A stretch of 43,589 bases of DNA from a virus. A program made the translations under genes and the position numbers. The notes under the pieces were generated by a model. That model searched no databases and was not told where the DNA came from. It was given only the letters and a program-made list of their open reading frames with translations. The stretch covers positions 1 to 43,589 of the IMG/VR virus record IMGVR_UViG_3300031975_000054, one strand, 5' to 3'. Of the stretch, positions 9,801 to 29,559 are shown piece by piece. Numbering within the stretch: position 1 is the stretch's first letter; each line of letters starts with the position of its first letter.

Positions 9801-12800
9801 TATCCATGTTACTCATTGTTTCTTGCACGCCTTCCTTAGTAGACATGTGCGCTAGAGTTACTCCAGTACCAGAATTTTTGGAGGGTTGTAGTATCTGTAA
9901 GATAAGGGCATCAGTTGTATTTAAAGCGTTTTCGCTGTCACTTAACTTACCTCTGTATACAGCGCGAGTAGATTGCCCAAGAATACTGTCAAGTAATCTT
10001 TTCACTACGTTAGCAAAACGTTGCCACGCACTAAGCGTTAAGTCTTTCTTAGTGTATATCTTAGACAGGTCACTCTGGAAACTCGGGTTGCTAAATGCCT
10101 CGGCTACAAACTCAAGTAGGCTTTCACTACCGTAAGCTGTAGGTAGTTTGTCTTTAACTTCTTTATACAACGCCTCCAACTGCTTAACCGCTGGGCTACC
10201 TTTCTTGTTTATAATTGTTTCGTATGTTGCAGCATGGGTCATCTCGTGTAACAACGTGTGTACAGTAAGTCCTTCTGGGTCAAGAATAATAGTGTTGTCT
10301 ATCCCCCCAAAGGAGTCAGTATTTACAAACAGCCCTAAAGTTTTAGCGCCCTCGCCATACCTTTCAACGTCTACTTTTTGTCTGGCTTTAAATGCCTTGT
10401 ATAAGTTGTTCCTAACGCTACCATCTGCAACGAATACTTTAGTGTCCCCTATGTACTCGGCTAACTTTTTGGCAGTTTGCCTTACTCGTGGGGTCACTTT
10501 AGGTAGTGCCGTTATTTTTTCCAATGCTTCTTTTAACTTGCCCGACCTAAGTAACGCAAGTATCTCAGGACTCAAGTCTATACCCAGTGCTTTAATGTCT
10601 TTACTTGTGTAAGGAAGGCCGTCCACGTTCAGGTCTAAACCTATTTCTTCCTCAGTAAAGGAGTTCATTTCGTCGTAGACTTCTATCTCTTCTAGCGTGG
10701 CTACTACTTCATCTACTTCTTTCTGCACCTTACTTTTCTTAGGTTTAGGAGGTAGGGTAGCAAACTTTTTATAGCGGTCAGTCATCTGCATGTACTTCAC
10801 GACTTGTTTAGCCGCTACAGTCTTCTGTTGCTTATCTTTGTCTACACCCTCGTTTAGTTGCTTGAGTAATTCTTTCTCCGCCTTTTCAAACTGCGCTTGG
10901 TCAAGTACGTCTTCTAGGGCTTCTTTTTTGTCTAACGTACGTTGACGACTTCTCTGCCGTTCTTCTGTAAGATCATCTGCCTTATCCTTGGTGGTAGGAG
11001 GCTTTTCTTTAATCTCTTTTCGTTTCTCCGCTAACTTCTTGTCGATAAACTTACCGACTTCTGGGGACACGATTTTCTTAACCTCTGCTAACGCCTCAGT
11101 AGCGTTATCCGCACTTCGGTTTTTTAGTTGCGCTCTAACATCGGGGTCTAAGCTGTCATTTGCCGCCACGCTAGTAGCTGGAATTCCCAACACAATGTCG
11201 CTAACGGCATTTAGAATCCCATCAACTGGGTCAGGCGCGTTACCAAAGTAGGTAGCTACCTTTTTATTTTCACTGGCTTTAACCGCTTTCCTGTCTGCAT
11301 CTGTTACAGGGTTTTTACTATCAGGCACTTCGTCAACGTAGCCAGTCCTACGAATCTCTTCCATCCGCGCTGCGGCAGGACTTAGAGGAGCTACTTCTTT
11401 AGCTTTGCGTTTAGCCTTAGTCTTAGCTTTGGGCTTAGCTTTGGGCTTAGCTTTAGCTTTAGCTTTAGCTTTAGCTTTAGCTTTAGTTTGTTTTAATGTA
11501 GGTATATCTTTACTTACAGTAACAGGTTGAGGTGTAGTACCTCTTGTAGTTACTCCCGGGGCGACCACGTTTGTATCCAGAGGTGTAGGTGTTAGTGTAG
11601 GATTGACGTCTCCTTCTCCACCAACAAGCGTATTAACGACTCCATCAGACACTTCCACTCCTCTAGCTGTAGGTGCCTTAGCTGCGGTGGGGTTTTGAAC
11701 TGGCTCCCGTCTTTGTTCCACACTTGCTGGATTACTGAAAACGCTAGCTCCACTTCGTTCTGCTGTAGCATTCTTAGGTTGTTGCTTTGCGTTAGTAGCT
11801 CCACGTGCTGTGTCTCCTGTCGCTAGGGGGTCGCCCGAAGTTTGTTGTAGTTTTTTAGTTTTCTTAACTTCAGTGGCTATAGTAGCGCTTTCCGCTTTTG
11901 TAGCAAAACTTTTAGCTACCTTTTCCGCCTTCAATGCTCTATGGTATCTAGCTTCTATAGCTTTTTGGGGGTTAGCGAACCCTTTAATGTCCACAGACTC
12001 ATCTAGGACTTTGTTAAGTATACGCTCACGTGTTTCGGCGGCTCTTTTCTCTCGCCCTTCTTGCACTCGTCTGTCGGTTTTAGGTAGTTCTTTAAGTGCT
12101 TCTTCGGCAGTGGCCTCAGCCTCTACACCTGCATCTTCCGCCAATAACGATTCAATCTCTTTTGTTTCCGCATCGTCTGCACGTGCAGCTTCTTGTTTTG
12201 CTACCTTGTCTTTTTCTGCGGCTGCTTCGTCTTTCTTATCCTTGTCTATTACTTCGTCTATATCTACTTGTTTCTTAGCCCGCTCATCCTCTGCGAACAT
12301 GTCTTCAATTTCTTTTGTCTCTGCCTCGTCCTTTAGCCTAGCGTCAGTCGATGTAATTTTGCCACTAGCTTCATCTTCTCTTCTCGCCTCAGCGTTGCGC
12401 CTGTCTAAACTGGTTTGTGGAAACAACTCTCCTTGCCCGTCTTCACCAAACAGTTCGCCTTGCTCTCGTTCGATGTCTTCTTCGCTAATTTCTTCTGGGA
12501 CATCTTGTACATCCGCCTCTGACTCTGGGCCTGTCTCATCACGTTGTGGCGTAGCACCTCTTCGTCTCCCCGGAAGTACATCTATAAGTAGTTGGTAGAT
12601 AGCACCTGTTGCACCGCCATATCCGGCAGACGCAGCGGCACCTTCAGCGAGTTCTCTGTCTGGGTTGTAGCCTTGCTCGACTAAGTTTTGTGCAGTGTTC
12701 TGGGCAAGTTCTTGGAGGGCTTCCACACCACCAGTAGTTCCGGCGCTTCTAGCTCGGTCAAGTAGACCTTTGAGTTCTTTGTCGCCACCAAGCATTTTGC

Positions 12801-13440: not shown

Positions 13441-15519
13441 CTACTGTTTTGTTTTAAGTTTATCGCCGACTATACTGTTCACATCTGCACTGTCACTGTA
13501 AGGGGAGCCGCTAAGGTTTGGTCGGTTTACTCCAGCCATCTCGTTCATTTTAGCAATTACACCCGAATACCCAGCTACAACACCATCAACCGCTTTATCT
13601 CTTATATCTATTAGCGGTGCCGTATCCTTTCCTTGCTGTTGTGCCATACTTATTTGTGCCTCGTAGGCTTTAAATATTTCTTCTTTAGCTTTAAGAATGT
13701 TTCCTTCAGCGGTAACGATAAGGGATAGTATATCTTTTCTTTGGGTGGCTCCAGCCTCGCCTGCCGCAATTATTTTCTCCATTTCCAATTCGGCTTCCGC
13801 TAGGTTAGCCTCCATTTTTCTAGCTATGGACTTATCTTTTCGGTCAAGGTCTTCTCGCGCTTTTACCATGTCTTGTTGTGATGCAACAGAAAAGCCCTGA
13901 ACAGCCGCATTTAGTATTGAAGTGCCGTTCGAGCCTATGCTTTCGTACCGGCTCATACCTTTATCAGCTATTAGACGATCCTGCTCTCTACCTTTTTGCC
14001 CTAATGATTCAAGCCCAAGCATTTGTTTTTCTCTGGCTTTGGATTGCGCGTTTCTTACTTGCATTTGGGCTTGTAGTCCCTGAGCAGCGCCCCCTTTACC
14101 CCTACCTACATACGCAGCGAAGGCTTCGGATTGTCTCTCTTTATCTGCTTCTGGATCGTATTCCCCGTAAAATTTCTTACGTGTTTCCATATCTGTTTTA
14201 TAGGCGTCTTCATTCGCCTGTCTTTTATAGTATATATCAGAGTCTGCACGCGCAGCTTCTTGCTCAGTTTTAAATGGTTGAGGATTAACTGTACCATCTT
14301 CTTTAAGCGCCCCAAGCCCTTGTAAGTTTTTCTTTGTTTGGTCTTGTGCTGTCGAACCTAGCTCTAGTTCCCCAGCGGACTCACCTGCGTTACCTTTTGC
14401 AGCGGCCAAAGCTGCATCGACCTTAGCGTAAGGATTAGCTCCGCCTTCTATGACACCTTGTACTTGGGCGTCAATACCAGCGGTATCGTCAGCGGCAAAC
14501 TGGGCGTCTTCATCAGCCATTAACCTTTCTAAGTCATCCTCTAAGCCAAACTGAACGTCTTCATCAGCTATTGCCTTTTCTAATCCAGCCTCGTTTTCCT
14601 GTTTAGCGACACGTTCTTCTTGTGTCATGTACCGCTTACCACCACCTTCCTTATCGACTAGTGGCCCAGAACCGTAGTTCATAAACGCATCAACGGCAGT
14701 ACTCGCAGTACGAGCATTTGGGTCTACATTTTCAGCGCGGAGTCGTTCGTTTATTGCCGCGTTATCCGCCGAGGGTATTCGGGGTCTGCCATATAGGTCT
14801 TCTGCCCCAGCGGCAAAACCATCAAAACCATACTTAGTCTTTAAGAAGTCTACTATTGCTTTGTTGTTCTTAGAAGCCGCCGCCATACTTTGCATAACTT
14901 GTTGGCTTAACTTGCCACCCTGTGATTCCGCATACTTTTCTATTTGCGCGATATTACCTTCCACAGAGAACTTTCTCGCATCTACATCACCGCCTTTTTT
15001 AAACTGCGCACGCATAAGTCCACCGGCAGCCGCAGCTACCCCACCCTGCATAGGATTACCTTGTGGCATTGGTCGGCCTTGTGGCATTGGTCGGCCTTGT
15101 GGTGCTCCACCTTGTGGTGCTCCGCCTAACAGATTACCGATACCAGCTCCCTGTGGCTTAGTAGCCTGAGAAAGCATTTTCTGTTGGGCTTTCTCTCTTT
15201 TCTGTTGATTCTGTTGCAGCACCTCCCCAACTTGGCCAGTAACCTCGTTCTTAGTAAGAGCAGTTGCCTTCTCTTCTAACTGGTCAACAATAGTTTTAGG
15301 GTTCTGCTGCTGCGCCAGCACCATCTGGTTCTTGGCAGCTTCTTTTTCGCTAGTGATTTTTTGTAACGCTAGAGCGTCAATCAGGTCACTAGGGATATTC
15401 CCCATGTTAGGTTGTTTACCCATAGCCTGTTTAAGTTTGCCGGGGTTACCCGCGTAAACACCTGCGGTTTTATCCACTGTGTCTAACATTCCTGCTATGC
15501 CGTTACCTGTGTATGCCAT
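13441..15519 (-). CDS. Probable internal virion/structural protein, 692 aa
   Basis: A Gln/Ala/Lys-rich, largely helical protein with no recognisable enzyme motif. Residues about 132-157 hold short Gly-Gln-Pro-Met repeats (GAPQG twice, RPMPQG twice). A GGLMRAQFKKGGDVD segment follows, of the sort common in structural-region proteins of marine phages. The C-terminal 200 residues form long amphipathic helices (KMEANLAEAELEMEKIIAAG) suited to a bundle or coiled coil. It lies between two other virion-type genes in the late operon, which in podoviruses is the ejection-protein position. I infer a component of the internal core or ejection apparatus; precise function is unknown. There is no transmembrane segment and no signal peptide. 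Confidence 0.78.
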   Translation of the reverse strand: MAYTGNGIAGMLDTVDKTAGVYAGNPGKLKQAMGKQPNMGNIPSDLIDALALQKITSEKEAAKNQMVLAQQQNPKTIVDQLEEKATALTKNEVTGQVGEVLQQNQQKREKAQQKMLSQATKPQGAGIGNLLGGAPQGGAPQGRPMPQGRPMPQGNPMQGGVAAAAGGLMRAQFKKGGDVDARKFSVEGNIAQIEKYAESQGGKLSQQVMQSMAAASKNNKAIVDFLKTKYGFDGFAAGAEDLYGRPRIPSADNAAINERLRAENVDPNARTASTAVDAFMNYGSGPLVDKEGGGKRYMTQEERVAKQENEAGLEKAIADEDVQFGLEDDLERLMADEDAQFAADDTAGIDAQVQGVIEGGANPYAKVDAALAAAKGNAGESAGELELGSTAQDQTKKNLQGLGALKEDGTVNPQPFKTEQEAARADSDIYYKRQANEDAYKTDMETRKKFYGEYDPEADKERQSEAFAAYVGRGKGGAAQGLQAQMQVRNAQSKAREKQMLGLESLGQKGREQDRLIADKGMSRYESIGSNGTSILNAAVQGFSVASQQDMVKAREDLDRKDKSIARKMEANLAEAELEMEKIIAAGEAGATQRKDILSLIVTAEGNILKAKEEIFKAYEAQISMAQQQGKDTAPLIDIRDKAVDGVVAGYSGVIAKMNEMAGVNRPNLSGSPYSDSADVNSIVGDKLKTKQ

Positions 15520-15545: not shown

Positions 15546-17693
15546 TTACGCTACGTTATCAAGATTAGTGTATTCGTTAGCCGATGTATCACCTGCATCC
15601 GGCTCTGTTTGATCACTCCCGCCAAACGTCGTTTCCCAGAAATTTTTAATTTTATCCGCCCCGTATTCAGTACCAGCGTCAATCAGTCCGGTAAGTACAT
15701 CAGCGGGGCCACCTGTGCCACCCAGTGCTTTGAACATACTGGTAATATCCGCGTAGTCACTAGGCTGAGAATAATTATAATTCTGCGCCTCTACAGGTAA
15801 GCCCTGTAGTAACGAGCTAATATACTGATTAGCGTTCCAATCAAAGTCACGCTCTTCTTCAAACTGGTCTTTCGCCGCAGCTACAGACTCAGAGTAAATG
15901 TCACGCTCTGTCGCACCTAGGTCAGACTGGCGCTGTAAAGCATCCAAACCGAACTGGCGGTCTTCTCCGAAAGACTTCTGCGCGTTATCAAACGCGGTGT
16001 TGTACCCTTGCGCTGTAATATCAGCCTGCTGCTGCGCCGAATCTCGTTGGAGCATAGCATTCATAATAGCGTTTCGAGAGCCGCCGAATGATCCCGACTG
16101 CGCTGCACGTACGTTCTGTTCAGCCATCTGCCTAGCAGCTTCTTCTTGTGCTACACGTAGCTGTGGGTCAAGAGAGCCTTGGAGGTAAGGATTCATGTAC
16201 TGATCCCTACCTGCTTGATTTACAGAGCCGTCTGGGTTATAAGTAGTTGTTTGAGCTAAATTACCAAACGAGCCTAACCCTGCGCCAGAGGTATCTATGT
16301 TAGCGCCAGCGTCAAATGCAGCTTGTTGGTTGGCGTTAATGCCAGCGGTTAGCGGGCCGGTATAGGCTTGGTAGCCATCCTCTACTAGGGCTTCGCCTCT
16401 ACCAATCATGCCAGTAACAGTATCACCTACCCAGTTGGATAGAGACGATTCCGCGCCTGTCTGCTTACCTAGCCCAGAAGTATCGGTAACATTAATAGTT
16501 GAGTCAGTCCCCTGAGTAGCGTTGTCAGTAGTAGCGTTGTCAGTAGTAGCGTTGTCAGTAGTAGCGTTGTTCATTGGGTCTATATTAACAGGCTCGGCAG
16601 CTAAATTAGAGTCAGCGCTAAAATCGTTCATCCCGTCAAAAGCTGTAGCCTCAACTAGGTCACCCTCTACAAACTTCTGGACTTTTCCGCCATGTGCATA
16701 TGCGTTAGCTATACCACCTTGAGCCAAAACTTTTTTAGCATCAATTTCTTTGCCTTGTTTTGGGTTACCCGTACGGGTTTCCCGTACATTAGACATCATA
16801 TCGTTTAACACGTTAGCGCCTGCATTAGAGCTACCGTTACCTAGGTGGCTTACAACATCCGCAGGAATAACAAACTCGCCGTCACTCAAGGCAGCGGGTT
16901 GTACTCCATCTATATTAGAAGGTACTTCGTCAGCCATGCCGTCTGTCATACCGTTTAGATAACGACCACCAGCTAACTGCTGTACTCCGCCGCCCATGTT
17001 AAAGTTGGCAGAATCTTCTTCTTTTTTGGTATAAGGGGAAGCGGCCATGCCGCCCATGTTGTACTTGCTAACCTTACCACCGGCAGCCATATAAGGGCTG
17101 TAGCCCGCAGAAAACCCTCTAGCTTGGTTTGCTGCGATACCCGAAGCTATGTCTTGGTTAGAGTAGTCTTGGGCCATAGTTTCTATAGCCCGACCCTCGT
17201 CCGTGTAGTTATTACCATACACTTGCGGGTTTTCGCCGGGAGTAGATAAGTACCCTTCTTCGGTGTAAGTTAGATTCGCGTCTTGGTCTTCTTTAGCTAT
17301 TTGCCCACCTGCATAGTCTATGGTGGGTTTTGTGTATATAGTTGTATCGTCTTCGTACAATTTTTGAGGGGTAGACTCAATACCACTAGCCCCACCTGCG
17401 TTTCTAAGGTACCGAGTGTCAGAAAAGTAGCGTCTACCCATTGCGCCGGGACTAACAGCACCACGATCTTGCGCATCGGTGTAGTTAACCCGCTCCATAA
17501 TTTTTTTGTAATCAGGCACAGACCCTTGGTATCCTGAACGCTTAATCTCTTCGTCAGTAAACCCAGATTTGTTTATAAAGTACGAAGCGGCCAGAGCTTT
17601 AGCGTTCGAGCCTTCTTCTGAACCTAGCCATGTCCCTACTTTGTCTTTTGTATTTTCCCACCAACCTGCGTCAGTTGTATCTGTTTCGGCCAT
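15546..17693 (-). CDS. Probable virion protein, GGKV/DGEFV-type, 715 aa
   Basis: A structural-region protein with three recognisable parts. The N-terminal third has Gly/Met-rich linkers (NMGGMAASPY, AAGGKVSKYNMGG). Residues about 246-303 carry the segment DGVQPAALSDGEFVIPADVV and then SHLGNGSSNAGANVLNDMM, which I know as a recurrent module in marine phage virion-region proteins. A low-complexity TDNAT repeat lies near 375-393. The C-terminal third (LDPQLRVAQEEAARQMAEQN, GSFGGSRNAIMNAMLQRD) is a helical region also typical of these proteins. The gene starts two bases after the stop of the 3780-aa gene, so it is co-translated in the late operon. A role in the ejected or tail-associated complex is inferred; the biochemical role is unknown. 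Confidence 0.8.
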   Translation of the reverse strand: MAETDTTDAGWWENTKDKVGTWLGSEEGSNAKALAASYFINKSGFTDEEIKRSGYQGSVPDYKKIMERVNYTDAQDRGAVSPGAMGRRYFSDTRYLRNAGGASGIESTPQKLYEDDTTIYTKPTIDYAGGQIAKEDQDANLTYTEEGYLSTPGENPQVYGNNYTDEGRAIETMAQDYSNQDIASGIAANQARGFSAGYSPYMAAGGKVSKYNMGGMAASPYTKKEEDSANFNMGGGVQQLAGGRYLNGMTDGMADEVPSNIDGVQPAALSDGEFVIPADVVSHLGNGSSNAGANVLNDMMSNVRETRTGNPKQGKEIDAKKVLAQGGIANAYAHGGKVQKFVEGDLVEATAFDGMNDFSADSNLAAEPVNIDPMNNATTDNATTDNATTDNATQGTDSTINVTDTSGLGKQTGAESSLSNWVGDTVTGMIGRGEALVEDGYQAYTGPLTAGINANQQAAFDAGANIDTSGAGLGSFGNLAQTTTYNPDGSVNQAGRDQYMNPYLQGSLDPQLRVAQEEAARQMAEQNVRAAQSGSFGGSRNAIMNAMLQRDSAQQQADITAQGYNTAFDNAQKSFGEDRQFGLDALQRQSDLGATERDIYSESVAAAKDQFEEERDFDWNANQYISSLLQGLPVEAQNYNYSQPSDYADITSMFKALGGTGGPADVLTGLIDAGTEYGADKIKNFWETTFGGSDQTEPDAGDTSANEYTNLDNVA
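16516..16570 (-). repeat. 15-bp tandem repeat (about 3.7 units)
   Basis: GTAGCGTTGTCAGTA is repeated perfectly three times (16516-16560), with a further ten bases of a fourth copy. It encodes Thr-Asp-Asn-Ala-Thr repeats in the 715-aa protein. Each unit is five codons, so copy-number changes keep the frame. It acts as a hydrophilic linker in the product. Confidence 0.88.
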
Positions 17694-17695
17694 GA

Positions 17696-20600
17696 TTATA
17701 TACCTAATAGTTTCATTAATTCGTCGGTTTCATCCTCAATCAGCCCGCCTTCGGCAGCGGCTCTAAGAGGAAGTTGTTGTGTCGCCATTTCATCCTGTTT
17801 CGCTCTAGCGTAAGGACTTTGATACAGCCCCCGTTGCTGATCATTAGCAAAAGGACTATCACCATATACATCATACATATACTCAATGTTCGCAAGCTCT
17901 TGAGGAGTTTCTACGCTAACTTGGCTCATAGCCTGTACTTGCTGCATTAAACGGGCGTATTCTTGTTTATCTGCCTCTTCCTCTGCTTTTTTCTGCGCGT
18001 CTAAGAAAATGTTTGTGTTGATATTTATGTTGTTGTTTATTTCTTCATTTATTTCGTTTTGTATATCTTGGTCTTGTTTGCGCTGTATTTCCGTATCATA
18101 CCTAGTTTCGTCGAATATATCATAAAATCCAGTGTTAGAAAACAGCGAATCCGTAGCTAATTCCCCACCATATACCGAGTAATCTCCTTCCTGTACCGCA
18201 GTTAGCAGGTCTTGATCTCTAGTATCTACTATACCGTCATTGTTTACGTCGTATTTAGCGTCATAAAGAGATACTACTCCTGTTTCTGGGTCAACCGTAG
18301 TGCCCTGTACTAAAGAGGTAACGGCGTCTATATCTTCTTGAGTTACCTCTTGGGCAGGTTTGCCTACTACAGCACCGATTGCCTCCAACTCCGCAGAGCC
18401 TACCGTGTCCATATTCCCTACGTAGTCGTACACAGCATTTATAGCTTGTAGTACGTCATCGTTAACACCTTCTCCTGACTGAGCGTATACCCCAGTTGCA
18501 GGTGTGAGGACAGTAGTGCCATCCTCGGCGTACGTAGCAGGCTCACCGATAACTGCTTCTAGCGCGGCAATAGCATCTTCGTTATCCAAAGACCCGTTAG
18601 CTATCTGGTCGATGATACCGTAGACGCCCGTTGCAGGTGAAGACTCGTCAATGTCTAACGTATTAGGGTCGTCAACTACACCCTGCGTACCGAACGCGTC
18701 TTGTAAATCACTTACGTCACCCTCTAAGCCAGCTATGTTAGCCCAGATACCAGTTGCTTCTTGGTCATCTGTTGCTTGTGTACCGAACGCTGTCTCTAGG
18801 TCATCGAACTTAGTAGAGTTATCGCCAATTAGTTTGAGTAACGCATCTTCGGCTATACCAAGGTCATCAGCTACTTTAGATACTGCTTGGTCTAACGAAC
18901 CACCTTCGGCTAAAGCGCCATTTAATTGGTCTTGTAGTTGGCCAACAGTAAGGGCTAAATCTCCTACGTCGCTCACTAACGTGTCCATTCGGCCAGCTAC
19001 GTACGCTGGTATAGTAGTACCTATGTCACCATCAGGCAGAAGACCCATGTAACGTGCTATCTCTGCATCCGTAGGGTCATAGTTCTCCCCAAATGCGGCA
19101 CGTACTTCTTCCTCTGTAGTAGTGGCAGCGTCTACTTTGCTACCTAGGGTTGTCGGGTCGTACTGCCCAGCAAGCCCCATACCAACAAGTTGGTCGTCAG
19201 TTATGACGTAAGCACCATCGCCATCTTGCTCGTATGCGTCTACACCAGCTATACCGTTTAGCGCCTCACGTGCTGCATCTGCTTGTACGTAGTTGTCCCC
19301 TACGTGAGTTTGTACTAGACCTGCTAACGTGGTGTCGTCCGCAACACCCGGCTCTATGCCCAAAGGTGTTTGGGTAAAGTCAAAGTAAGAGTAGCCGCCC
19401 GTCGCAGTGTCTATCTCATCTTGCGTAATTATGTACTTATCTATTAATGTGTCTTCTGGGTCGTCTACCAATTCACCCTGCGTAGTAGGTGTACCTGCTG
19501 CACCTTTATCTACTACTAACTGAGTAATCAAGCTCTCGAACTGCGGGTGATTTGCGTCTATACCTTGTGCAGATAATGCAGTAATCGCTTGATCTCTAGT
19601 AAACTGCCTTTCAGCTACCCACGCGTCACGTCCGGCGGAGTCTAAACTCTCGACCGCAGCTATATCAGCATCAGAAGCATCTGCCCACCCTTTAGTGCCT
19701 AAGTCTGCCGCAATCTGATTCTGTGCCGTGGTTCTATTGTCAGCCTTAAAGTCGCCTAGCTCAGTGTCTAAATCAACACCTAAACCTGTTAAGCCATCAA
19801 AGCTAAAGTCTTCACCTAGTGTGTAGTCTGATAAGTAGTCTCGTACCTCCTGCTCGCTAGTTATATCGCCTTGTACTTGTAAATCACCTTGCGCGTTAGT
19901 TCTAGCGCCGGTCATGTCTACTAGACCGTCTAGGTAATCTTTGTAGGTTGTTAAGTCCTCGGCAGTAAGCGTCCTACCTAACTCGGCAGCCAAAGCTGCT
20001 TCAGCGTCAGCACGTGTGTACTGTAGAGGCGCTAGGTCTGTAGATATTTGAGTACCTAACTGTGTCTCATCCATTACCCCAGTGAAGTTAGTGAAGTCAA
20101 AGCCTTCGGGTATAACAAAACCTGTAGCTTCTAAAGACGCCCTAGCCTCAGCTTCGGTAGTGGTTGCAGCGCCGAACGCGGTTCTTTGCTCATTTTCTGT
20201 AGCGTATGCGCCTGTTTTTACTAGGTCAAATGCTCCAGCGTATTTAGCTTCTAATTCTTCTACAGACAAGCCTGCATCTGCTGGGAACGCAGCGCGTAGG
20301 TCGTCAGCTACTTCACTTCTGGTGTAGCGTTTGTTATCTATATCATCATAGATAGTTGCTTTTATTTCCTCGGCTGTTTTACCTTCAAAGTTTTTATTAT
20401 TTACAAACCAGTCTATAAAGCCTTGACGGTCGCCCGGAGTATACGCACCACCGTCTTGGGTAGCGTCATCTAACGCAGCGTTTATAGCGGCTGTTTGTCG
20501 TTGTATTTCTGCTTCTTCTGCACGATCTGCATCTACGCCGCCACGATAACCAGAGGTTATGTCTTCTACTGAGGTTGTACCGAAACCTAAGCTGCTATCG

Positions 20601-23600
20601 AATGTACCCGCAGTGGCTGGGTCGTAACCTTGTCCTGTTAGGTATGCGTCGATCTCGTCTTGGCTTACAGTAGCGTCATCTAAACGATCAACTAAACTCT
20701 TAGAAGTTTCAGCCGTACCTGTGCCACCCGTCTGCCAATACCTACCTGTGTACGCACTGAGGTCTAGCCCCTCAGAAATTGCCTGCCCTACTGCCGCTGC
20801 ATCTGCAAACCCGAAGTCCGTTGGGTTAGTAATCATAGCTGCCATTACTTCATCTTGAGTAATAGTAGTTTCGTTGTAGAGGTCTAGTGTTTTACCAGTT
20901 AGATTGGCTGGATCCGTAGGTAGTACTGTAGATTCGTCACCCACACCAACTAATCGGCTATCTATATTGCCAGTAGGTATCCACCCCTCGCCGTACCCAA
21001 GAACATCTCTAAAGTAAGCGTTAGCTTCGTCCTGAGTAATAGTGCCTTCGTCGAACGCGATTCTTTGGTTGTCTTCGTGCCCGTAATTACCTTCAGTCTG
21101 CAAGTTAGTAAATAACGTACCGTACTTAGTTTTTAGGTCTTCTACAGACAAGTCTGCATCTGCTGGGAACGCAGTTCTTATATCAGCGGCTATCTCACTT
21201 TCACTATAACGTCTGTCATCTACGGCACGTTGTACTAATGCTTTTCTTCCCTCTTCGTCTAAAGCATCGTACTGTGGCTTACCTTTCACGTTATATAAGT
21301 AGTAGTCTCTTATACCGTCGTATGCCACACCAGAATACGCGCCACCGTCTTGGCTAGCATCGTCCATAGCCGCATTAATTTCGGTTGTTTTAGCTGCTAT
21401 CTCGGCTGCTGCGGCTGCTTCTGCTGCTAAACGTGCATCTCGTTGCGTTATGGTTTCATTAGCTGTTTGGTACTCAGACGTAGCTGTACCTAGGTCAATA
21501 CCTAAGCCTGTACCTGCAAACGCAAGTAAATCTTCGTTGGATAAACCCGTAGTATCGTAGTCTAAACCTTCTAGGTACGACTTAACATCGTCAGCGCTAG
21601 TTATGTCGCTTTCTACTTGGGTTTTACCCGTTGCATCAGCACTTGTATCACCGTCTAACTGCACTACTCCGGCTAAGAAAGAGTCGTAAACACCATCGTC
21701 TATTTCTTCTTGGGTAAGTGATCTACCTAACTCAGTTTCTAAATCAGCTATAGCTTCGTCACGTGTGTACTGCCTAGACTTTTTATACGCATCCACTGCG
21801 TAGGGTAGTCCCGTTTCCCAAGCCCAAATAGGTTGCTCTTCTGCTCTAGCGTAGAATCCAGCGTAGTCAAAATCCGCAGGCATTGTTAAGCCTGTAGCTG
21901 CTAGTGCATCTTTTACAGTTTGTACTTCCGCTGCTGCGGCTGCTTCTGCTGCTAAACGTGCATCTCGTTGCGTTATGGTTTCATTAGCTGTTTGGTACTC
22001 AGACGTAGCTGTACCTAGGTCAATACCTAAGCCTGTACCTGCAAACGCAAGTAAATCTTCGTTGGATAAACCCGTAGTATCGTAGTCTAAACCTTCTAGG
22101 TACGACTTAACATCGTCAGCGCTAGTTATGTCGCTTTCTACTTGGGTTTTACCCGTTGCATCAGCACTTGTATCACCGTCTAACTGCACTACTCCGGCTA
22201 AGAAAGAGTCGTAAACACCATCGTCTATTTCTTCTTGGGTAAGTGATCTACCTAACTCAGTTTCTAAATCAGCTATAGCTTCGTCACGTGTGTACTGCCT
22301 AGGGGCTAAGTAGCCAGCTATACCTGCATTGTTGTTTAGGTAGTCGGTAACCTCTTGTGGAGTAGGGTTGTAGTCACCAAACAGAGCTGCGGTATCGTTT
22401 CGTTTATCTTGTACAAACCCAGCTATACCCGCATTGTTGTTTAGGTAGTCGGTAATATCTTGTTCGCTAGGGTTGTAGTCACCAAACAGAGCTGCGGTAT
22501 CGTCTCGTTTACCTTGTACAAACCCAGCTATACCTGCGGTGTTGTTTAAGTACGCATCGACAGTAGCCGCATCAGGGTCGTATCCTGCATCAATGAATAC
22601 TTGTTTTACTCTAGGTTTTACGGTGTTCTCTACAAAGTCAGAAATCCCTGCGTTGTCAGTTAAGAACTGTTCAACTTCTGAGTCAGTAGGTGTGTACCCC
22701 GCGTCGATAAACGCTTGTTTTGTGTCAGCAAGTTGCTGTGCAGCATCGTTCTCTGCGTCGTATGCTTCTTTTAGCCTAGTAACTTCGGTTGCTATAGCTG
22801 CACGTTGGTCAGCATCAAAAGTAGCTCCGCCTTCTCCGGTAAAGCCCATACCCATTATCGCTTGGTATATGCCATCATCAGAGTTGTAGCTCAGACCTAA
22901 ATCTGATAAGTAGTAAGCTAACTCCATTGGGCTAAGAGTTTTCGCGTTGTTCGCGGCAGCAAGGTCACGTCTAGCTTGTAGTATTTCTGGGTCGTTCATC
23001 CACTGCGTTGTCGTAGCATCACGTAAACGCTCTAGCTGTTCTGGTGTAGGTGTAATACCGTATTTATCTTCTATTAACTCGGTACGGTACGCGTCTATAC
23101 CTGCGTTTAGTCTTTCTAAGGCAGAGCCTTCAGCACCTACACCTACATCAAAGTGTCTGGCTATTATATCGGCCATTTCTTGGTTAGGTACGTTCTTACC
23201 TTGCTCCGCGTCCCATGTCATGTTTGACATGCCGAATCGCGTAATTAGAACAGCTTGGGCAGTACCATTACTAAGCGTAGTACTAGCCTCTATACGAGCA
23301 TCTTGGTTCCTTTTTTGTTGTTCTGCGTACGTCGTAAACTCTTCTATAGGGTTGGTACGGCCCTTAAACGCATTTACATTACTTGCGGTTACTTCAAAGT
23401 CAGTTACGCCAGCGTCATCGAGTATGTTCTGGAGCGTAGCTACCCACTTATTTTGCGCCGCATTTTTAAGTACATCATCATTCGAGATATATGGAAAGAG
23501 CGTGGGTTGCGGACTAAAAGCCGTGGAGTTAGTCCCTAAAGTAATACCCTGTTCACTCATGTAGGCGTCAACTTGAGCGTCAAAATCAGAGTCTTCTCTG

Positions 23601-26600
23601 GACACGCCAAGGTTACCAAACTGTTGTACAAACGACTCTTCAACTTCTGCTCTAGTAAGCTCAAAGTTGGATGCGCTTCGTAGCAGGTGATCTAAACTTA
23701 AATATCCGCCACTTAATGTCCGGTTAATATAAAGGCTACCATCTGGCGCGTGCGAATCTTTTATTCTTTTTAAGAAAGTCCGATAAACGTCGGTATTCTT
23801 ATTAGATAGCACTTCGTCCAACTGCTGTATTGCTAAATCTTCTGCGGTTAATTCAGGTGGTGGTGGGGCTACCGGGTTGTCCTCTAAAAATTGGCCCGTG
23901 TCGGTAAATATATTACCAAACCCTTCTTGTATAACTGAGGAAGTTCCTAGAGTTAGCTTATTGTCTATATCAGCTTTGTTAGCGTTGTAGTAAGCCTCCG
24001 CTTGTCCTTCTGTAAACCCATGATCACTAACTAAATACGCTTTAAACTCTTCGCCAGTAAATTTGTCCTCCTGTATCTGGGTAGTTATTCCGGCTATAGC
24101 GTCTTCCTTGGTAATCCCCGCAGCAAACGCCCCAGACAATGCTCTTATGTCCGCTTGGGTAGCGTACTGTAGACCTGCGGCTTGCGCAGCGGCGGTTACA
24201 TCACTTGCCAGTATTACGTATGGGGCAGCATACTGAGTTACCGCAGTAGTTAGCGGCATATTTAAGTCAGTTTTTAGCCCAGTAAAATTAGCTAGTTCCG
24301 CTTGTGTAGGAGTATACCCAAGTATTTTAAATTGATCCGCCACTTCAGTAGAACTATTGTAAGCCGCATCGTCAATTTCGTTTAGGAAATCGCTGTACGC
24401 TGGATTATCGTACTCTACCCCTATACTACCTAAAAACCCTGTTGCCGCGTTTAAAGCTGTTTCGTCGTCCCACTCTAATAACTTTTGCTTGTTTTTTATT
24501 TGTTCCATCGCGTTGCTAACAAGGGGGTTAAACATGAGTACGGTAGATGCGCCAGTTCCAGATAAGTCGTTATTAAGCCCGTTTGAATCTTTATTGACTT
24601 CTGAATTGGTATTAATATAAACACCTGAGCCTGCACCGACAAGGGAGGTACCCGCGCCGATTGTACCCTCTATAAATATGCCCGCCCACATAGCATCAAA
24701 TGCTGACTCGCTAAGTCCCCAGTCTTTATCTACATTTTTGTTTATCCATATATTATCGCCTAACGCTAATAAGCCCTCGTCTGCCCCGCCTGTGGCACCT
24801 TCTTTTAACGCTATTTTTGTGGTGTCAATTACCCTGTCAGAGGCGGCGTCCCACATACTGTTAAATACTTTATTTTGTCCTGTGTTCGTGCCAAGTAATG
24901 CTTCTTCAGCGGCTAGCTTACCCATGCCCATAAGAAGCGATAATGTGATCCCTTGTCGTGTGGCACTCTCAAGCCCCGCAGTAGCGGCTTGTCTATCGGC
25001 TATTTCCGCTATCTGCTCGTCTGAATACTTCCTAACCATAGAAGGAGGATCAGTTATAAAACTTAACTCTTCGATGGCCTTATACTGCTCAGTAACTAGT
25101 TGGCGTACGAGGTCTGATTGACCCTCATAAGCTGCGCCCATGGCAAACGCTACGTCTACACCTGCACCTATCCCTAACGCCGCTTTTTTCGCCATTAAGT
25201 TGTTGGCTATGTTGTATGCTCTTGCGCCAGTTGAATAAACAAACCCACCTGCTGCGCCCACCGCAGAACCTACCACAGTGCCGGTAGGCCCAAGTATCCT
25301 CCCCCAAGCAGCACCCAAAGCTAAACCTGATGCTGTACCAGCGGCTATGGCGGGTGCCGACTCAAGTATCTCTTGTAGCAACATGTCATACATAAACGAC
25401 GTAGGTGCAGCTTTATACGACCCAAGTACCATTAACATAGAGTTGTTTGCTTGTGCGCTTAGTAATTCTTTGCCTTCTAAACCTTCTTCGTTGACGTAAT
25501 AATCGCGGCGTATTTTATTACCTAGGTCGTCTCGTAAAAACTCTCCTGTGTCAGGGTCTTTTAAGAACTCGTCAAAGTTCTGTATGTACCTATCCATGTC
25601 TTCTCTAGCGGCTTTTAACTCCGCCGTAGTATATGAGGTAGCCATAGTTTCTAAGGCTTCAGCGCGGGCCATGAGTTCAGGGTCTACCGCCCCACCCTCA
25701 CTTGTTGTCAGTCGCTCCCAATACCCTTTTAAACCTGCATATTGCTTTACTACTGCTGCGCTAGCGTTTAGAACTGTGGCGTATTCATTGTTAAGCCCAA
25801 ACAAGGCTTCTCTTCTTTCTTGTTCAGACAGAGAGTCATCGTCCTTCGCATTTTGTAGGGCTTCTGCACGCGCCGCTGCTAACTCACGTACTTCACTAGG
25901 TATATACGTAACGTTGTTAGAGTCCGCGTAAACTACAATCTCTTCCATGGTAGCGCCAAAATCACCGCTAAAAAGAGAATTAACATTACTTAGGTACGCG
26001 TTAGGGTCTGTGTATCTTTGGTTTTCTAGGGAGTTACCTGCTACATCCTTAGAACCTGTTGTACTGTCCCACATAGTACTGGTAGGTATTGAAGATTCTA
26101 AAACGTAAGTGCCTGTAGCCACGTCAAAAGTTTGTGTTGTATTGCCGTCTACAACATCTTCCCAAGTAACTCCGTCGCCTAACACTGTGTCGGCGTTGTT
26201 CCAGTCCTTGGCGGAGTCGTTATTAAACGAAGTGTACGTGTCTAACAAAGTGTCTATGGAAGCTATATCAGGACTAAAGTTCCAAGTAGTTATAGAACCA
26301 TTTGCGTTGTGTTTTTGCTTACCATTTAAGGCTTGTAGGGTGTCTTTAGTCCTTTCCAAGTTTTCTAAAGAACCATCTATGTCCCTCAAACCGTAGTTAA
26401 GCGCGCCGTTACCACTTATTAGATAATTTATGTCTTCCGTAGATACACCACTAAAACCCCCCGCATTAAGACTACGAAGTATGTCTGCCGCTACATCGGC
26501 ATTGTTTACGTTTAGGTTTACTTGGACAGCGGCAGACCCCGCGTTAGTAGCTCCTATACTACCTTGGTCGGTGACAAACCCCGCGTTACCTAGCCCTAGA

Positions 26601-29038
26601 CCGTTAACTATAACCGCTAAATCAAATGATTGGTTGTTGTATGCAGCGTCGCTTACTTTAGGTATAGCTTTAGGGTTATATACTGCCGGTATTTGCCCAC
26701 CCAAAGTATTCTGATTTGATAGCGCTGTTATTGCTCCAGTCTGTATAGCCGACACATAGGCGTCTTGGTTGGTAAAGTAGTTTTGTTTAGACCCAACAGC
26801 AAGGTAATGTTGCGCTGCCTCTGAACGTGTAAAACTACCCCCCGTTTCTGCCATGTTGTAGTTTTCAAAATACCAGTCGGAGTCAAAATTTTCATCCATG
26901 GAGACTGCGATAGTTACGTTTATATTTTCTATGTCGTCATCAAAATTGTTCCAGAAATTATCGGACTCTAAGCCCAAAGTTCCTTGGGTAGTTACGACAT
27001 CATTCCATAGTTCGTTATAGGTTGTTATATCTGTGGCGTCAAACCCTGTTCTAGCACTCCAGTCTTCTGCCCATGTGTCGTACCCAGCCGTAGCGTTGTC
27101 AAAATCATTTATCGCTGCGACAGCGTTGTTGCCTACCTCGTCTGCGTATTCTTTAAGCCGGTCAAAACTAGATTCTGTTATACCAATGTAAGCGTCAGAG
27201 CCGTACCCGAGTGATGGGCCGTTAGAGTTATATCCGGGGCCTATAGGATTAACTTGGTTATTACGCGTTTCTATACCTATCTTCCCTAATAGTTGGGCGT
27301 TCCAATAGTTATCGCCTGAACCCATTACTCTGCCCGACGGGGGGTTTACAAGCACGACGCCACTTAGCCCTGTAACGTCATATATGGCCTCTGTTACATT
27401 ATCAATGTTCGCCGGTCTACTGGATGAGTTGATTATGAAACTAGCCGTTACCTCTGGCCCGGCATACGCTTCAAACCCACTATCGACATACTCTTGGTAT
27501 TTGGCGTCGTACCATTCAGCGTTGTCGATTTTCCATTGTTCAATCCCCTCATCGTCATACGAAAAACCTTTTGCGTCACGAGATGTTGTCGTAACTTTCA
27601 TGTACACTTCTTGCCCTACTTCATACGGTGGGGCTGTGCCATTCTCTTGTGTGTAAGCGTCATACTCCTCCTGAGTGTAAGCATATTTCTTGTACACTCT
27701 ACTACTGTACAGCCACCCACCAGTTGGATCGTTCATTTCAGCGTCAGTGGCGTAACTCAAAAACTCGCCACCTTCTTGCAGGGCATAAACGTCACCCATT
27801 AAATCTTGTTGGCCCGCTATAGACTCATTTGCGTTTTCGTGTAACGCTAGTATCTCATCTTGCTTACCATTAGCCTCCTCTAAAGCGTTTAAAAATTCCG
27901 GGGTTGCCATAGCTTCCAAAGCATCTATAGCATCTTTATGCGCTTGCCAACTACCCTGTATCATTTTAACGCCTACCGCAAATGTATCTCCGGCAAACCT
28001 AATTCCGCTGTCTACTGCGTCTACTACCCAGTCAACCCCTTTTTCTACCATTTTCCCTAGCGCACTTTCGTCGAAAAAATCTGACAGGGCCGCAACGCCA
28101 TTAGCTTCTAAAGCACCTAAAAGATGCGCGGCAGCTTCCTCTCCAGTACCCCCAGATAGCGCAGAGGCCACGGCATTCTGCACGCCGCCCGTTAAAAACG
28201 ACAGCATCTGATTGCTTAGTTCATTATCGGCTGTTAGAAAATTTACGCCATCAGGGTCTAGCGTTTCTAGTACCCCAGATACAGTCTTAGAAGTAATAAT
28301 CGCGTTGGTAACGGCCTCATAAAATATGCCTTCAGTTACATCTTGTCCTTGTAGTTTGGCGTTTATGCCTCCCGCAATAGTGTCCTGTATTATGGTGGGT
28401 AACTTTTTAAATTCCCCTTCTATGGTTTCAAAATTTAGGCCGTCGGCCAATTCGTCAACTTTGCCCATAGCCATTCCTACTAGCTGTGGAACAGAGGCTT
28501 CTAAAAATGGGTTAAGAAACGCGTCGGAAAAGCTATCCCCTAATACTAACGCCGTACTAGAGGCGGAAAAACCGTCAACTAGGCCATCTAGGAGTACATC
28601 TTGGAGGAAAAAATTACTCTCGGGAATTAAATCCGCGTATCCTTGGTACTTTTGACTGAATCCGCCTATTAGTTTTCCAGTGGCGTATGTTTTGGCTGCT
28701 CCTTTTGCGATGTCTCCCCATGATATGTCCTCGTACCCGGGAAAACCCACGGCCTTCATCCATACAGCTTCTGCGGTGTTCATTAGGGGTATCACCCAAC
28801 CCGCACCTGTCGCCATCAATATTATTTGAAAGATAGCTTTCATCGGGTCGTCTAGCATCCCGTTTACAAAACCTTTCTGCCAATCGTATATTGGCTCGAT
28901 TATGTATTCGTCAAACTTTCTACCTAGCCTACGTAAGTCATCTTCAAAACCACCGTGAAAAGCGTAGTCGTCGAAACTTGCTAAAGCATCCGAAAGGGGA
29001 TCCCATAAGTCGTGCCATCTATCACTTAACCAACTCAT
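17696..29038 (-). CDS. Giant repeat-rich virion protein (3780 aa), probable ejection protein
   Basis: One uninterrupted frame of 11.3 kb. The N-terminal ~150 residues (MSWLSDRWHDLWDPLSDALA, then IFQIILMATGAGWVIPL) are aromatic and partly hydrophobic. A Gly/Ala-rich membrane-like region lies at about 1230-1275 (GLALGAAWGRILGPTG). From about residue 1500 onward come many degenerate 35-60-aa units of the pattern ITQDEVxxYLxxxGYDP, with close tandem copies at about 2136-2241 and an exact duplication at 2246-2370 and 2421-2545. Near 3597-3608, DVNNDGIVDTRD matches a dockerin/EF-hand type calcium loop. The C-terminus is a Lys/Glu/Gln-rich helix and a short GGLIEDETDELMKLLGI tail. It starts in an ATGA overlap with the upstream gene. 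Size, membrane-like region and position suggest an ejected or tail-associated protein. No enzyme domain is recognised. Confidence 0.85.
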   Translation of the reverse strand: MSWLSDRWHDLWDPLSDALASFDDYAFHGGFEDDLRRLGRKFDEYIIEPIYDWQKGFVNGMLDDPMKAIFQIILMATGAGWVIPLMNTAEAVWMKAVGFPGYEDISWGDIAKGAAKTYATGKLIGGFSQKYQGYADLIPESNFFLQDVLLDGLVDGFSASSTALVLGDSFSDAFLNPFLEASVPQLVGMAMGKVDELADGLNFETIEGEFKKLPTIIQDTIAGGINAKLQGQDVTEGIFYEAVTNAIITSKTVSGVLETLDPDGVNFLTADNELSNQMLSFLTGGVQNAVASALSGGTGEEAAAHLLGALEANGVAALSDFFDESALGKMVEKGVDWVVDAVDSGIRFAGDTFAVGVKMIQGSWQAHKDAIDALEAMATPEFLNALEEANGKQDEILALHENANESIAGQQDLMGDVYALQEGGEFLSYATDAEMNDPTGGWLYSSRVYKKYAYTQEEYDAYTQENGTAPPYEVGQEVYMKVTTTSRDAKGFSYDDEGIEQWKIDNAEWYDAKYQEYVDSGFEAYAGPEVTASFIINSSSRPANIDNVTEAIYDVTGLSGVVLVNPPSGRVMGSGDNYWNAQLLGKIGIETRNNQVNPIGPGYNSNGPSLGYGSDAYIGITESSFDRLKEYADEVGNNAVAAINDFDNATAGYDTWAEDWSARTGFDATDITTYNELWNDVVTTQGTLGLESDNFWNNFDDDIENINVTIAVSMDENFDSDWYFENYNMAETGGSFTRSEAAQHYLAVGSKQNYFTNQDAYVSAIQTGAITALSNQNTLGGQIPAVYNPKAIPKVSDAAYNNQSFDLAVIVNGLGLGNAGFVTDQGSIGATNAGSAAVQVNLNVNNADVAADILRSLNAGGFSGVSTEDINYLISGNGALNYGLRDIDGSLENLERTKDTLQALNGKQKHNANGSITTWNFSPDIASIDTLLDTYTSFNNDSAKDWNNADTVLGDGVTWEDVVDGNTTQTFDVATGTYVLESSIPTSTMWDSTTGSKDVAGNSLENQRYTDPNAYLSNVNSLFSGDFGATMEEIVVYADSNNVTYIPSEVRELAAARAEALQNAKDDDSLSEQERREALFGLNNEYATVLNASAAVVKQYAGLKGYWERLTTSEGGAVDPELMARAEALETMATSYTTAELKAAREDMDRYIQNFDEFLKDPDTGEFLRDDLGNKIRRDYYVNEEGLEGKELLSAQANNSMLMVLGSYKAAPTSFMYDMLLQEILESAPAIAAGTASGLALGAAWGRILGPTGTVVGSAVGAAGGFVYSTGARAYNIANNLMAKKAALGIGAGVDVAFAMGAAYEGQSDLVRQLVTEQYKAIEELSFITDPPSMVRKYSDEQIAEIADRQAATAGLESATRQGITLSLLMGMGKLAAEEALLGTNTGQNKVFNSMWDAASDRVIDTTKIALKEGATGGADEGLLALGDNIWINKNVDKDWGLSESAFDAMWAGIFIEGTIGAGTSLVGAGSGVYINTNSEVNKDSNGLNNDLSGTGASTVLMFNPLVSNAMEQIKNKQKLLEWDDETALNAATGFLGSIGVEYDNPAYSDFLNEIDDAAYNSSTEVADQFKILGYTPTQAELANFTGLKTDLNMPLTTAVTQYAAPYVILASDVTAAAQAAGLQYATQADIRALSGAFAAGITKEDAIAGITTQIQEDKFTGEEFKAYLVSDHGFTEGQAEAYYNANKADIDNKLTLGTSSVIQEGFGNIFTDTGQFLEDNPVAPPPPELTAEDLAIQQLDEVLSNKNTDVYRTFLKRIKDSHAPDGSLYINRTLSGGYLSLDHLLRSASNFELTRAEVEESFVQQFGNLGVSREDSDFDAQVDAYMSEQGITLGTNSTAFSPQPTLFPYISNDDVLKNAAQNKWVATLQNILDDAGVTDFEVTASNVNAFKGRTNPIEEFTTYAEQQKRNQDARIEASTTLSNGTAQAVLITRFGMSNMTWDAEQGKNVPNQEMADIIARHFDVGVGAEGSALERLNAGIDAYRTELIEDKYGITPTPEQLERLRDATTTQWMNDPEILQARRDLAAANNAKTLSPMELAYYLSDLGLSYNSDDGIYQAIMGMGFTGEGGATFDADQRAAIATEVTRLKEAYDAENDAAQQLADTKQAFIDAGYTPTDSEVEQFLTDNAGISDFVENTVKPRVKQVFIDAGYDPDAATVDAYLNNTAGIAGFVQGKRDDTAALFGDYNPSEQDITDYLNNNAGIAGFVQDKRNDTAALFGDYNPTPQEVTDYLNNNAGIAGYLAPRQYTRDEAIADLETELGRSLTQEEIDDGVYDSFLAGVVQLDGDTSADATGKTQVESDITSADDVKSYLEGLDYDTTGLSNEDLLAFAGTGLGIDLGTATSEYQTANETITQRDARLAAEAAAAAEVQTVKDALAATGLTMPADFDYAGFYARAEEQPIWAWETGLPYAVDAYKKSRQYTRDEAIADLETELGRSLTQEEIDDGVYDSFLAGVVQLDGDTSADATGKTQVESDITSADDVKSYLEGLDYDTTGLSNEDLLAFAGTGLGIDLGTATSEYQTANETITQRDARLAAEAAAAAEIAAKTTEINAAMDDASQDGGAYSGVAYDGIRDYYLYNVKGKPQYDALDEEGRKALVQRAVDDRRYSESEIAADIRTAFPADADLSVEDLKTKYGTLFTNLQTEGNYGHEDNQRIAFDEGTITQDEANAYFRDVLGYGEGWIPTGNIDSRLVGVGDESTVLPTDPANLTGKTLDLYNETTITQDEVMAAMITNPTDFGFADAAAVGQAISEGLDLSAYTGRYWQTGGTGTAETSKSLVDRLDDATVSQDEIDAYLTGQGYDPATAGTFDSSLGFGTTSVEDITSGYRGGVDADRAEEAEIQRQTAAINAALDDATQDGGAYTPGDRQGFIDWFVNNKNFEGKTAEEIKATIYDDIDNKRYTRSEVADDLRAAFPADAGLSVEELEAKYAGAFDLVKTGAYATENEQRTAFGAATTTEAEARASLEATGFVIPEGFDFTNFTGVMDETQLGTQISTDLAPLQYTRADAEAALAAELGRTLTAEDLTTYKDYLDGLVDMTGARTNAQGDLQVQGDITSEQEVRDYLSDYTLGEDFSFDGLTGLGVDLDTELGDFKADNRTTAQNQIAADLGTKGWADASDADIAAVESLDSAGRDAWVAERQFTRDQAITALSAQGIDANHPQFESLITQLVVDKGAAGTPTTQGELVDDPEDTLIDKYIITQDEIDTATGGYSYFDFTQTPLGIEPGVADDTTLAGLVQTHVGDNYVQADAAREALNGIAGVDAYEQDGDGAYVITDDQLVGMGLAGQYDPTTLGSKVDAATTTEEEVRAAFGENYDPTDAEIARYMGLLPDGDIGTTIPAYVAGRMDTLVSDVGDLALTVGQLQDQLNGALAEGGSLDQAVSKVADDLGIAEDALLKLIGDNSTKFDDLETAFGTQATDDQEATGIWANIAGLEGDVSDLQDAFGTQGVVDDPNTLDIDESSPATGVYGIIDQIANGSLDNEDAIAALEAVIGEPATYAEDGTTVLTPATGVYAQSGEGVNDDVLQAINAVYDYVGNMDTVGSAELEAIGAVVGKPAQEVTQEDIDAVTSLVQGTTVDPETGVVSLYDAKYDVNNDGIVDTRDQDLLTAVQEGDYSVYGGELATDSLFSNTGFYDIFDETRYDTEIQRKQDQDIQNEINEEINNNININTNIFLDAQKKAEEEADKQEYARLMQQVQAMSQVSVETPQELANIEYMYDVYGDSPFANDQQRGLYQSPYARAKQDEMATQQLPLRAAAEGGLIEDETDELMKLLGI
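21405..21777 (-). repeat. 373-bp direct repeat, copy A
   Basis: I aligned this by eye to 21930-22302 at a constant offset of 525 bases and found no mismatch. It encodes about 124 identical residues, from the segment beginning YTRDEAIADLETELGRSLTQ to the Ala-rich end RLAAEAAAAAE. The offset is 175 codons, so the frame is maintained. Confidence 0.93.
21930..22302 (-). repeat. 373-bp direct repeat, copy B
   Basis: This is the partner of copy A. It is separated from it by 152 bases of unique sequence encoding a short spacer (TGLTMPADFDYAGFYARAEE and a little more). The sharp edges and lack of silent differences point to a recent in-gene duplication, or to gene conversion between copies. Confidence 0.93.
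22310..22735 (-). repeat. Tandem 105-bp repeats (35-aa units), last units degenerate
   Basis: The landmark AGCTATACC recurs at 22316, 22421 and 22526, exactly 105 bases apart, with close similarity across the units. Each encodes a unit of the form ALFGDYNPxxxxxxDYLNNN followed by AGIAGFV. Further copies toward 22735 are diverged (AFIDAGYTPTDSEVEQFLTD). The array abuts copy B of the 373-bp repeat. Confidence 0.85.
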
Positions 29039-29559
29039 TCAGCCTTTCCTTTCTGCTTAATTCTTTTTTTGCCCATACTTATAAACGCTAGGTAGTCATC
29101 AGGGTTTTTATTACTTTTGCCTAAAGTAACTTTAACATCTTTGTCTTTTAATTCTTCGTACATAGCTAAAAAAGACTCTGTGTACATATCGTTGTCGTAT
29201 TTTATAACCCCAAAAGTCGCTTCGTTTCTTTGTAAATGACTTAAAAAGTCTACAAGGTTTGTTTTTATGTTGGGTAATACGTCAGCGTTATAGAATAAGG
29301 TAAAAAACTGGCTAAAGCTGTCTTTCTTACCTCTAGTTGTAGCGAACGCTGAGTTATTAACTTGGACTAAATCAGTGCCGGGTATAGCCGCCGCAGCCAT
29401 GTTGTGTATCTGGTCAACAGTTTTAAGGCTAGAAACGGCAGTTGTTATAATTTCAATTGGGTTTAGTTGTTGTTGTTTGCTGTCTATAAGCGGCGCTTCA
29501 ATCCCCTCAAATTTATGCGTGATCAACCCGTCAATTTGTTGTCTAGTTATCTGCTGCAT
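29035..29559 (-). CDS. Unknown phage protein, coupled to the 3780-aa gene
   Basis: A 174-aa soluble protein with no motif I recognise. It has a helical N-terminal half (ITTAVSSLKTVDQIHNMAAA), a central stretch FSQFFTLFYNADVLPN, and a strongly basic C-terminus (GKKRIKQKGKAE). Its stop overlaps the ATG of the giant gene as ATGA, so the two are translationally coupled, which suggests an assembly partner or chaperone for the giant protein. It lies nine bases downstream of the tail-fibre gene stop. Function is inferred from coupling only. Confidence 0.78.
   Translation of the reverse strand: MQQITRQQIDGLITHKFEGIEAPLIDSKQQQLNPIEIITTAVSSLKTVDQIHNMAAAAIPGTDLVQVNNSAFATTRGKKDSFSQFFTLFYNADVLPNIKTNLVDFLSHLQRNEATFGVIKYDNDMYTESFLAMYEELKDKDVKVTLGKSNKNPDDYLAFISMGKKRIKQKGKAE

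Follow-up and report, generated by a model that had tools for sequence, protein, structure and literature searches.

A 3780-residue cysteine-free repeat protein as a very probable ejection protein of a short-tailed phage

The linear viral contig of 43,589 bases considered here (the window, by which the whole stretch of analysed DNA is meant) gives 26.0% of its length to one uninterrupted reading frame, and the question that this locus raises is what kind of protein, 3780 residues long, such a gene encodes. An initial annotation, made from the letters alone, had pointed to this single gene at 17696–29038 and proposed for its product a new class of ejection or tail protein. The extent of the gene agrees with that description, and of the two functions proposed it is the first that the present analysis favours: the giant protein is very probably an ejected internal virion protein of a short-tailed phage. 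The basis for this reading is well supported and consists of the fixed place of the gene in an ejection-gene block, the absence of cysteine from the giant onward, as in known ejected proteins, and the virion proteomics of phage phiM5, in which homologues of its partner proteins were detected.

The start ATG of the giant gene is preceded by a Shine-Dalgarno-like sequence (AGGAAAGG). Upstream, the gene has 4 bp in common with the 174-aa gene, and downstream a 2-bp gap separates it from the 715-aa gene. The same gene is present on contigs L001–L005 and L012, where the best segments are 82–100% identical. The dN/dS ratio for the first 2300 residues is 0.53–0.70 (compared with L002) and for the C-terminus it is 0.25 (compared with L005), and because of these values the giant is regarded as a translated gene that is constrained yet fast-evolving. 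The corresponding ratios of the nozzle, the holin and the 174-aa gene are 0.16, 0.08 and 0.17, whereas the 692-aa partner gene, with 0.59, resembles the giant in lying several-fold above the nozzle and the holin. Ejection proteins are known to diverge rapidly (PMC8954989), and the difference between the first 2300 residues of the giant and the nozzle, holin and 174-aa genes is in line with this. The dS values also differ between genes, from 0.05 to 0.50, which suggests recombination.

The protein has a net charge of −409 and consists of several distinct parts (Table 1). Its first 100 residues contain 6 W, 7 F and 3 Y, residues 1201–1400 are 18% Ala and 12% Gly, and a calcium-loop motif (DVNNDGIVDTRD) begins at residue 3597, in agreement with the aromatic N-terminal part, Gly/Ala region and calcium loop initially described. 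Transmembrane-like character was limited to one weak window at aa 68. The repeat units, which are 43–46 aa in length with the consensus VDPRQVTEDEARAAFAALGYTPTDEEIAQFVGQGNETTQQTAI, are located mainly at residues 2097–3343, with one more at 1557. In self-comparison the giant gave 420 off-diagonal high-scoring windows as against 4–16 in block shuffles, and a hidden Markov model (HMM) of the unit detected 13–14 copies, with none in 20 shuffled proteins; the repeats are thus real, but their earlier count of “dozens” was overstated. Part of this repeat signal is due to a recent duplication of 373 bp, which is exact and has an offset of 525 bp, and when L002 is aligned to the window protein it shows one extra 35-aa unit within the tandem region.

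Table 1. Positions of the giant gene, its parts and the neighbouring genes in the window (aa numbers refer to the protein concerned).
Feature	Positions	Strand	Basis
Giant gene, 3780 aa, product very probably ejected	17696..29038	minus	ORF, conservation, dN/dS, synteny, cysteine-free
N-domain, aa 1-480, with amphipathic helices and Gly/Ala stretches; common to the family	27599..29038	minus	profile of other giants, E 2.4e-36; alignments
Second Ala/Gly-rich membrane-like region, aa ~1230-1480	24599..25351	minus	composition; comparable stretch seen by eye in relatives
Isolated repeat unit, aa 1557-1597	24248..24370	minus	unit HMM, E 2.8e-13
Tandem repeat units, aa 2097-2278	22205..22750	minus	unit HMM; alignment gap
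Further, more degenerate units, aa 2302-3343	19010..22135	minus	unit HMM, self-comparison
Recent exact 373-bp duplication, copy 1	21930..22302	minus	
Recent exact 373-bp duplication, copy 2	21405..21777	minus	
EF-hand/dockerin-like loop DVNNDGIVDTRD, aa 3597-3608	18215..18250	minus	same place in 15/25 giants
Conserved C-terminal tail, aa 3706-3780 (QVSV...YMYD...SPY...GGLIEDETDELMKLLG)	17699..17923	minus	retrieves family alone
174-aa gene associated with giants	29035..29559	minus	
Tail nozzle/stabilisation protein, 767 aa	31062..33365	minus	phrog_3287, E 1.5e-51
SU10-type tail adaptor	38455..39132	minus	PF24175, E 2.1e-19
Cysteine-free partner of 715 aa in which SDGEFV and GGSR domains are fused	15546..17693	minus	
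Partner W692, 692 aa, no cysteine	13441..15519	minus	
Partner W2195, cysteine-free protein of 2195 aa in the DNA-transfer slot; HEMTH motif; LPD39 and DarB-like C-terminus	6844..13431	minus	

AlphaFold modelled the N-domain at a pLDDT of 41 and the repeat and C-terminal half of a relative at a pLDDT of 56 (pTM 0.22), both too poor for fold assignment, and a Foldseek search with the latter model returned nothing at E ≤ 0.001. In this low-confidence model the repeats are helical, with about three short helices per unit, and the region resembles a string of beads joined by linkers more than it does a stiff rod. With models of this quality, the helical rod across the envelope or periplasm that had initially been proposed stays conjectural. 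The unit profile weakly matched calmodulin and myosin light chains, which share a helix-linker-helix organization, with a summed E of ~5e-4 (single-domain i-E 0.9–12), and Pfam scans of the units gave scattered unrelated families. An origin of the unit from EF-hands is a lead suggested by this similarity, and it stays at that level because the E-value is derived from summed weak domain scores and the Pfam matches are scattered.

In comparisons with Pfam, PHROGs and NCBIfam the window giant showed no convincing family match and no enzymatic domain, and a match to a known tape-measure or enzyme family, which would have spoken against the original proposal, was likewise not found in these libraries. 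The whole protein matched no PDB sequence, and a match to HNH_repeat (E 1.3e-4) was rejected as it was below the cut-off with no significant stretch. When both halves of the giant and its relatives were used in tblastn searches of 50,697 phage records, the only phage found was ctpbd312 (MW202545), through a relative. The survey sample comprised 80 nozzle loci from IMG/VR, in which large ORFs were seen in the slot occupied by the giant. Twenty-five complete giants were recognized, ranging from 974 to 3780 aa; the window protein is the longest found and the next has 3111 aa. The unit HMM finds 0–17 repeats in these 25 proteins (14 in the window giant), and length and unit number are correlated (Spearman 0.80), a relationship which is partly trivial because units add length.

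A profile of the N-domain, built on residues 1–480 of giants other than the window protein and those closely related to it, recovered the window giant with the E-value given in Table 1 and did not match the reversed sequence. The C-terminal tail motif alone retrieved 27 loci, and since the N-domain too is present in the majority of the giant ORFs of these loci, this provides an independent check of the family. A scan of genome contigs with the same tail gave no relatives and hence no host or prophage evidence. Some other candidates were not retained as members. An apparent N-domain in a 759-aa protein of DSL-LC04 (E 8e-13) was attributed to profile drift, as it disappeared with the giants-only profile, and the 314–369-aa proteins of L023, L047 and L077 gave weak matches (1e-5 to 1e-6) and were not counted. 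In L022 (4714–10275, 1854 aa) and L063 (3137–6112, 992 aa) the giant slot is filled by proteins with no convincing family similarity. As judged from these sequence comparisons, the giants are an undescribed family.

Upstream of the giant, the window encodes a capsid protein, two SU10-type adaptors, an M15 endolysin, the nozzle, a 497-aa fibre-like gene and the 174-aa gene. On these short-tailed-phage contigs the giants share a common slot order, viz. nozzle, fibre, 174-aa gene, giant and partners, the last of which is the DNA-transfer protein. The nozzle, fibre and 174-aa genes precede the giants wherever the contig covers that side, and the genes for SDGEFV, GGSR (both names coined here from conserved strings), W692 and W2195 follow the giant in nearly all loci retrieved by the C-terminal tail alone. 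The SDGEFV gene follows in all but one of the loci in which the contig reaches it (L016 is unmarked). SDGEFV and GGSR are fused in the window (15546–17693), L005, L097 and L098, and they are separate genes elsewhere. The 174-aa gene, whose position recalls T7 gene 13, was not seen away from giants except in ctpbd312, where it adjoins a protein which combines the N-domain and the SDGEFV domain (E 4.2e-27 and 1.6e-25, respectively). In the block of ctpbd312 the last gene has a transglycosylase domain. No DarB-like, LPD or enzymatic domain was detected in the giant with Pfam and PHROGs, such domains being located in the neighboring 2195-aa protein. The latter also contains a zincin-like HEMTH motif (aa 1062, window positions 10234–10248), and this region matches a Vibrio phage protein annotated as a virion RNA polymerase (E 1e-3).

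The giant gene marks an abrupt change in cysteine content. The giants contain one cysteine in 50,171 aa and the SDGEFV, GGSR, W692 and W2195 families none in 67,281 aa, in comparison to 6.8 per 1000 aa for the nozzle proteins and 6.9 for other ORFs of the same loci. When ORFs of at least 200 aa are arranged by gene position, the five positions preceding the giant show 5.7–8.4 cysteines per 1000, as against 0.00–0.02 at the giant and the positions after it; the step is located exactly at the giant gene. At the background rate, the chance of a cysteine-free protein of 3780 aa is ~4e-12, which is an indicative figure only. Cysteine is similarly lacking from T7 gp15 and gp16, from N4 gp50, gp51 and gp52, from P22 gp7, gp20 and gp16, and from the JC1 virion proteins gp64, gp67, gp68 and gp69, while T7 gp14 has a single one. 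Portals, nozzles and spikes of the control phages have several, but some of their capsid, scaffold and fibre proteins have none, and for this reason the absence of cysteine is a sensitive but not a specific indicator for short proteins; among the remaining ORFs of the giant loci that reach 200 aa, 13 of 64 are also cysteine-free. The one exception is ctpbd312 (L093, 19941–23102), where SDGEFV has 36 and GGSR 33 cysteines, including runs such as CCSCCCSCCC, which is opposite to all other phages examined. The near-absence of cysteine is a feature derived here and not a textbook criterion for ejection proteins; a search of the literature by title or abstract gave no match for such a rule, which may still have been published.

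These observations can be compared with what is known of podoviral ejection proteins. The giant is encoded in the block that follows the tail nozzle genes and is free of cysteine, as such proteins are. In particles of Sinorhizobium phage phiM5, according to the notes in its own record, the homologues of the nozzle and of GGSR (E 8.7e-44 for the latter) were detected together with the three “internal virion proteins” which follow GGSR. No sequence similarity was found between the giant and the ejection proteins of T7, P22 and N4 in PHROGs and among PDB sequences, and similarity is lacking among the known groups of ejection proteins as well (PMC8954989). In T7, P22 and N4 these proteins exit the head before the DNA and form a trans-envelope conduit (PMC8954989, PMC12633501). 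In SU10, the source of the adaptor family present in the window, five types of ejection proteins are released through the extending nozzle (PMC9509320), and the block of the giant loci likewise has five functions.

The same evidence bears on other explanations of the giant. It is unlikely that the protein is injected cargo which acts in the cytoplasm as an effector or antidefence protein, in the manner of DarB or vRNAP, and is not a part of the conduit. Known giant ejected proteins (N4 vRNAP and DarB-like proteins) have cytoplasmic roles, the last protein of the ejection block (2195 aa) is DarB-like, and the absence of cysteine suits cargo equally well; such a role is compatible with all of the sequence evidence. 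However, the libraries searched reveal no enzymatic domain in the giant, which is moreover first in its block, whereas in T7, P22 and N4 the large protein that reaches the cytoplasm is last.

Two further readings are much less probable. Adhesins can have both calcium loops and repeats, and the giant, which possesses both of these and adjoins fibre-like genes, could on this ground be a calcium-stabilised external tail protein, i.e., a repeat-built fibre, spike or adhesin. We consider this highly improbable, as the cysteine step places the giant with the ejection block and not with the nozzle and tail genes, its prediction is all-helical with no fibre-family match, and its N-domain is fused to SDGEFV in ctpbd312; the tail-protein half of the initial proposal is thus not favoured by either the cysteine step or the gene order. 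That the giant is the tape measure of a long-tailed phage is suggested by its length, helical nature and Gly/Ala stretches, by a match of its relative L025 to phrog_167 (E 2e-10, within the coiled coil of L025) and by a syntenic protein which is annotated as tape measure in DSL-LC04 and GB2A, but there is hardly any chance that it is one: the window giant matches no tape-measure family in Pfam or PHROGs, the nozzle and adaptor genes of the window are of the short-tailed type with no recognised tail-tube gene, and lengths vary from 974 to 3780 aa within one gene order.

If the giant is an ejected internal virion protein, it would be packed in the head with its partners, exit via the nozzle in an unfolded or partly folded state before DNA entry, and help to form a conduit across the envelope. 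The roles assigned to its regions are tentative and only perhaps correct. The N-domain might insert in or dock at the membrane and contact the partner SDGEFV protein, a proposal for which the fusion of the two domains in ctpbd312 is cited. The acidic helical repeats may serve as a flexible spacer or lining of variable length in the periplasm or channel, and the calcium loop and conserved C-terminal tail could function in packaging or in refolding outside the capsid. The EF-hand-type loop is present in 15 of the 25 giants, all 15 matches in the 45,853 residues scanned being inside the last 200 aa; it is usually single and is 143–184 residues from the C-terminus. The giants share the DxNxDGxIxxxD loop with dockerin type I and EF-hand proteins, and relatives give subthreshold Dockerin_1 matches, but unlike dockerin type I they have one loop only and fall below the family cut-off; with Pfam PF00404 the window giant gave no match and its relatives remained below the cut-off, with unpaired loops. 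A GG motif is found within the last 45 residues of 17 of the 25 giants. A short GG motif, often MAAGGI, is also enriched in the SDGEFV family (34 vs. 9 in shuffles) and in W692 (32 vs. 8), and the MAAGG[IV]-like form occurs in these two families in many loci, including the window (15546–17693 and 13441–15519). It is possibly a packaging or cleavage signal, and that the GG motif of the giants, SDGEFV and W692 is a shared packaging signal is a guess.

The giants add a large family, with no match in the family libraries searched, to the poorly understood apparatus that carries short-tailed phages through the cell envelope, and they suggest that ejection proteins with no recognisable enzyme can reach 3,780 residues. 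The variation in their repeat number supplies a ready-made series of lengths with which to study what determines how far the conduit extends, and the sharp cysteine boundary provides a sequence-only way to predict ejected phage proteins, which is testable on cultured phages. The broadest generalization, that such giant non-enzymatic ejection proteins are widespread and undescribed, with a reach set by repeat number (0–17) and a refolding switched by calcium, and that abrupt cysteine loss marks ejected products generally, is doubtful as a whole.

Among known systems, T7 gp14/gp15/gp16 and P22 gp7/gp20/gp16 resemble the giants in forming a block after the tail genes and in their near-absence of cysteine, but they are far shorter and have no detectable sequence similarity to the window protein. 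To our knowledge, no such repeat units or calcium loop have been reported for them. The phages DSL-LC04, GB2A, HTVC023P, CRP-901, MinM2 and phiM5 have ejection-type blocks that are nearly cysteine-free, with homologues of the nozzle and of GGSR arranged in an identical order, but they contain no giant, and in its place there is either nothing or an SDGEFV protein of smaller size; in the first five the order is nozzle, usually an SDGEFV-domain protein, GGSR protein, a third protein and the DNA-transfer protein. The initial annotation had considered the giant to be much larger than known podoviral internal proteins. This does not hold, and of its claim of a new class the part that stands is an undescribed family, to which Pfam, PHROGs, NCBIfam and PDB offer nothing convincingly similar, giant internal proteins of podoviruses being already known. 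The ejected N4 vRNAP (gp50) has 3500 aa, with a membrane-spanning N-domain, loosely linked domains and an HExxH subdomain (PMC12633501). It is like the giant in being very large and cysteine-free, and it is ejected with smaller partners; unlike it, the giant shows no single-subunit RNA polymerase domain in Pfam, PHROGs or PDB, and the counterpart of the HExxH subdomain is in the 2195-aa protein of the window. Burkholderia podovirus JC1 encodes the DarB-like gp69 of 4515 aa, which is found in virions and accounts for 22% of its genome (PMC9144972). Neither gp69 nor the other genes of the JC1 block were matched by the profiles used and they were rejected as homologues, but gp69, which is also very large and cysteine-free, is a virion protein of a short-tailed phage and as such a precedent for the giant.
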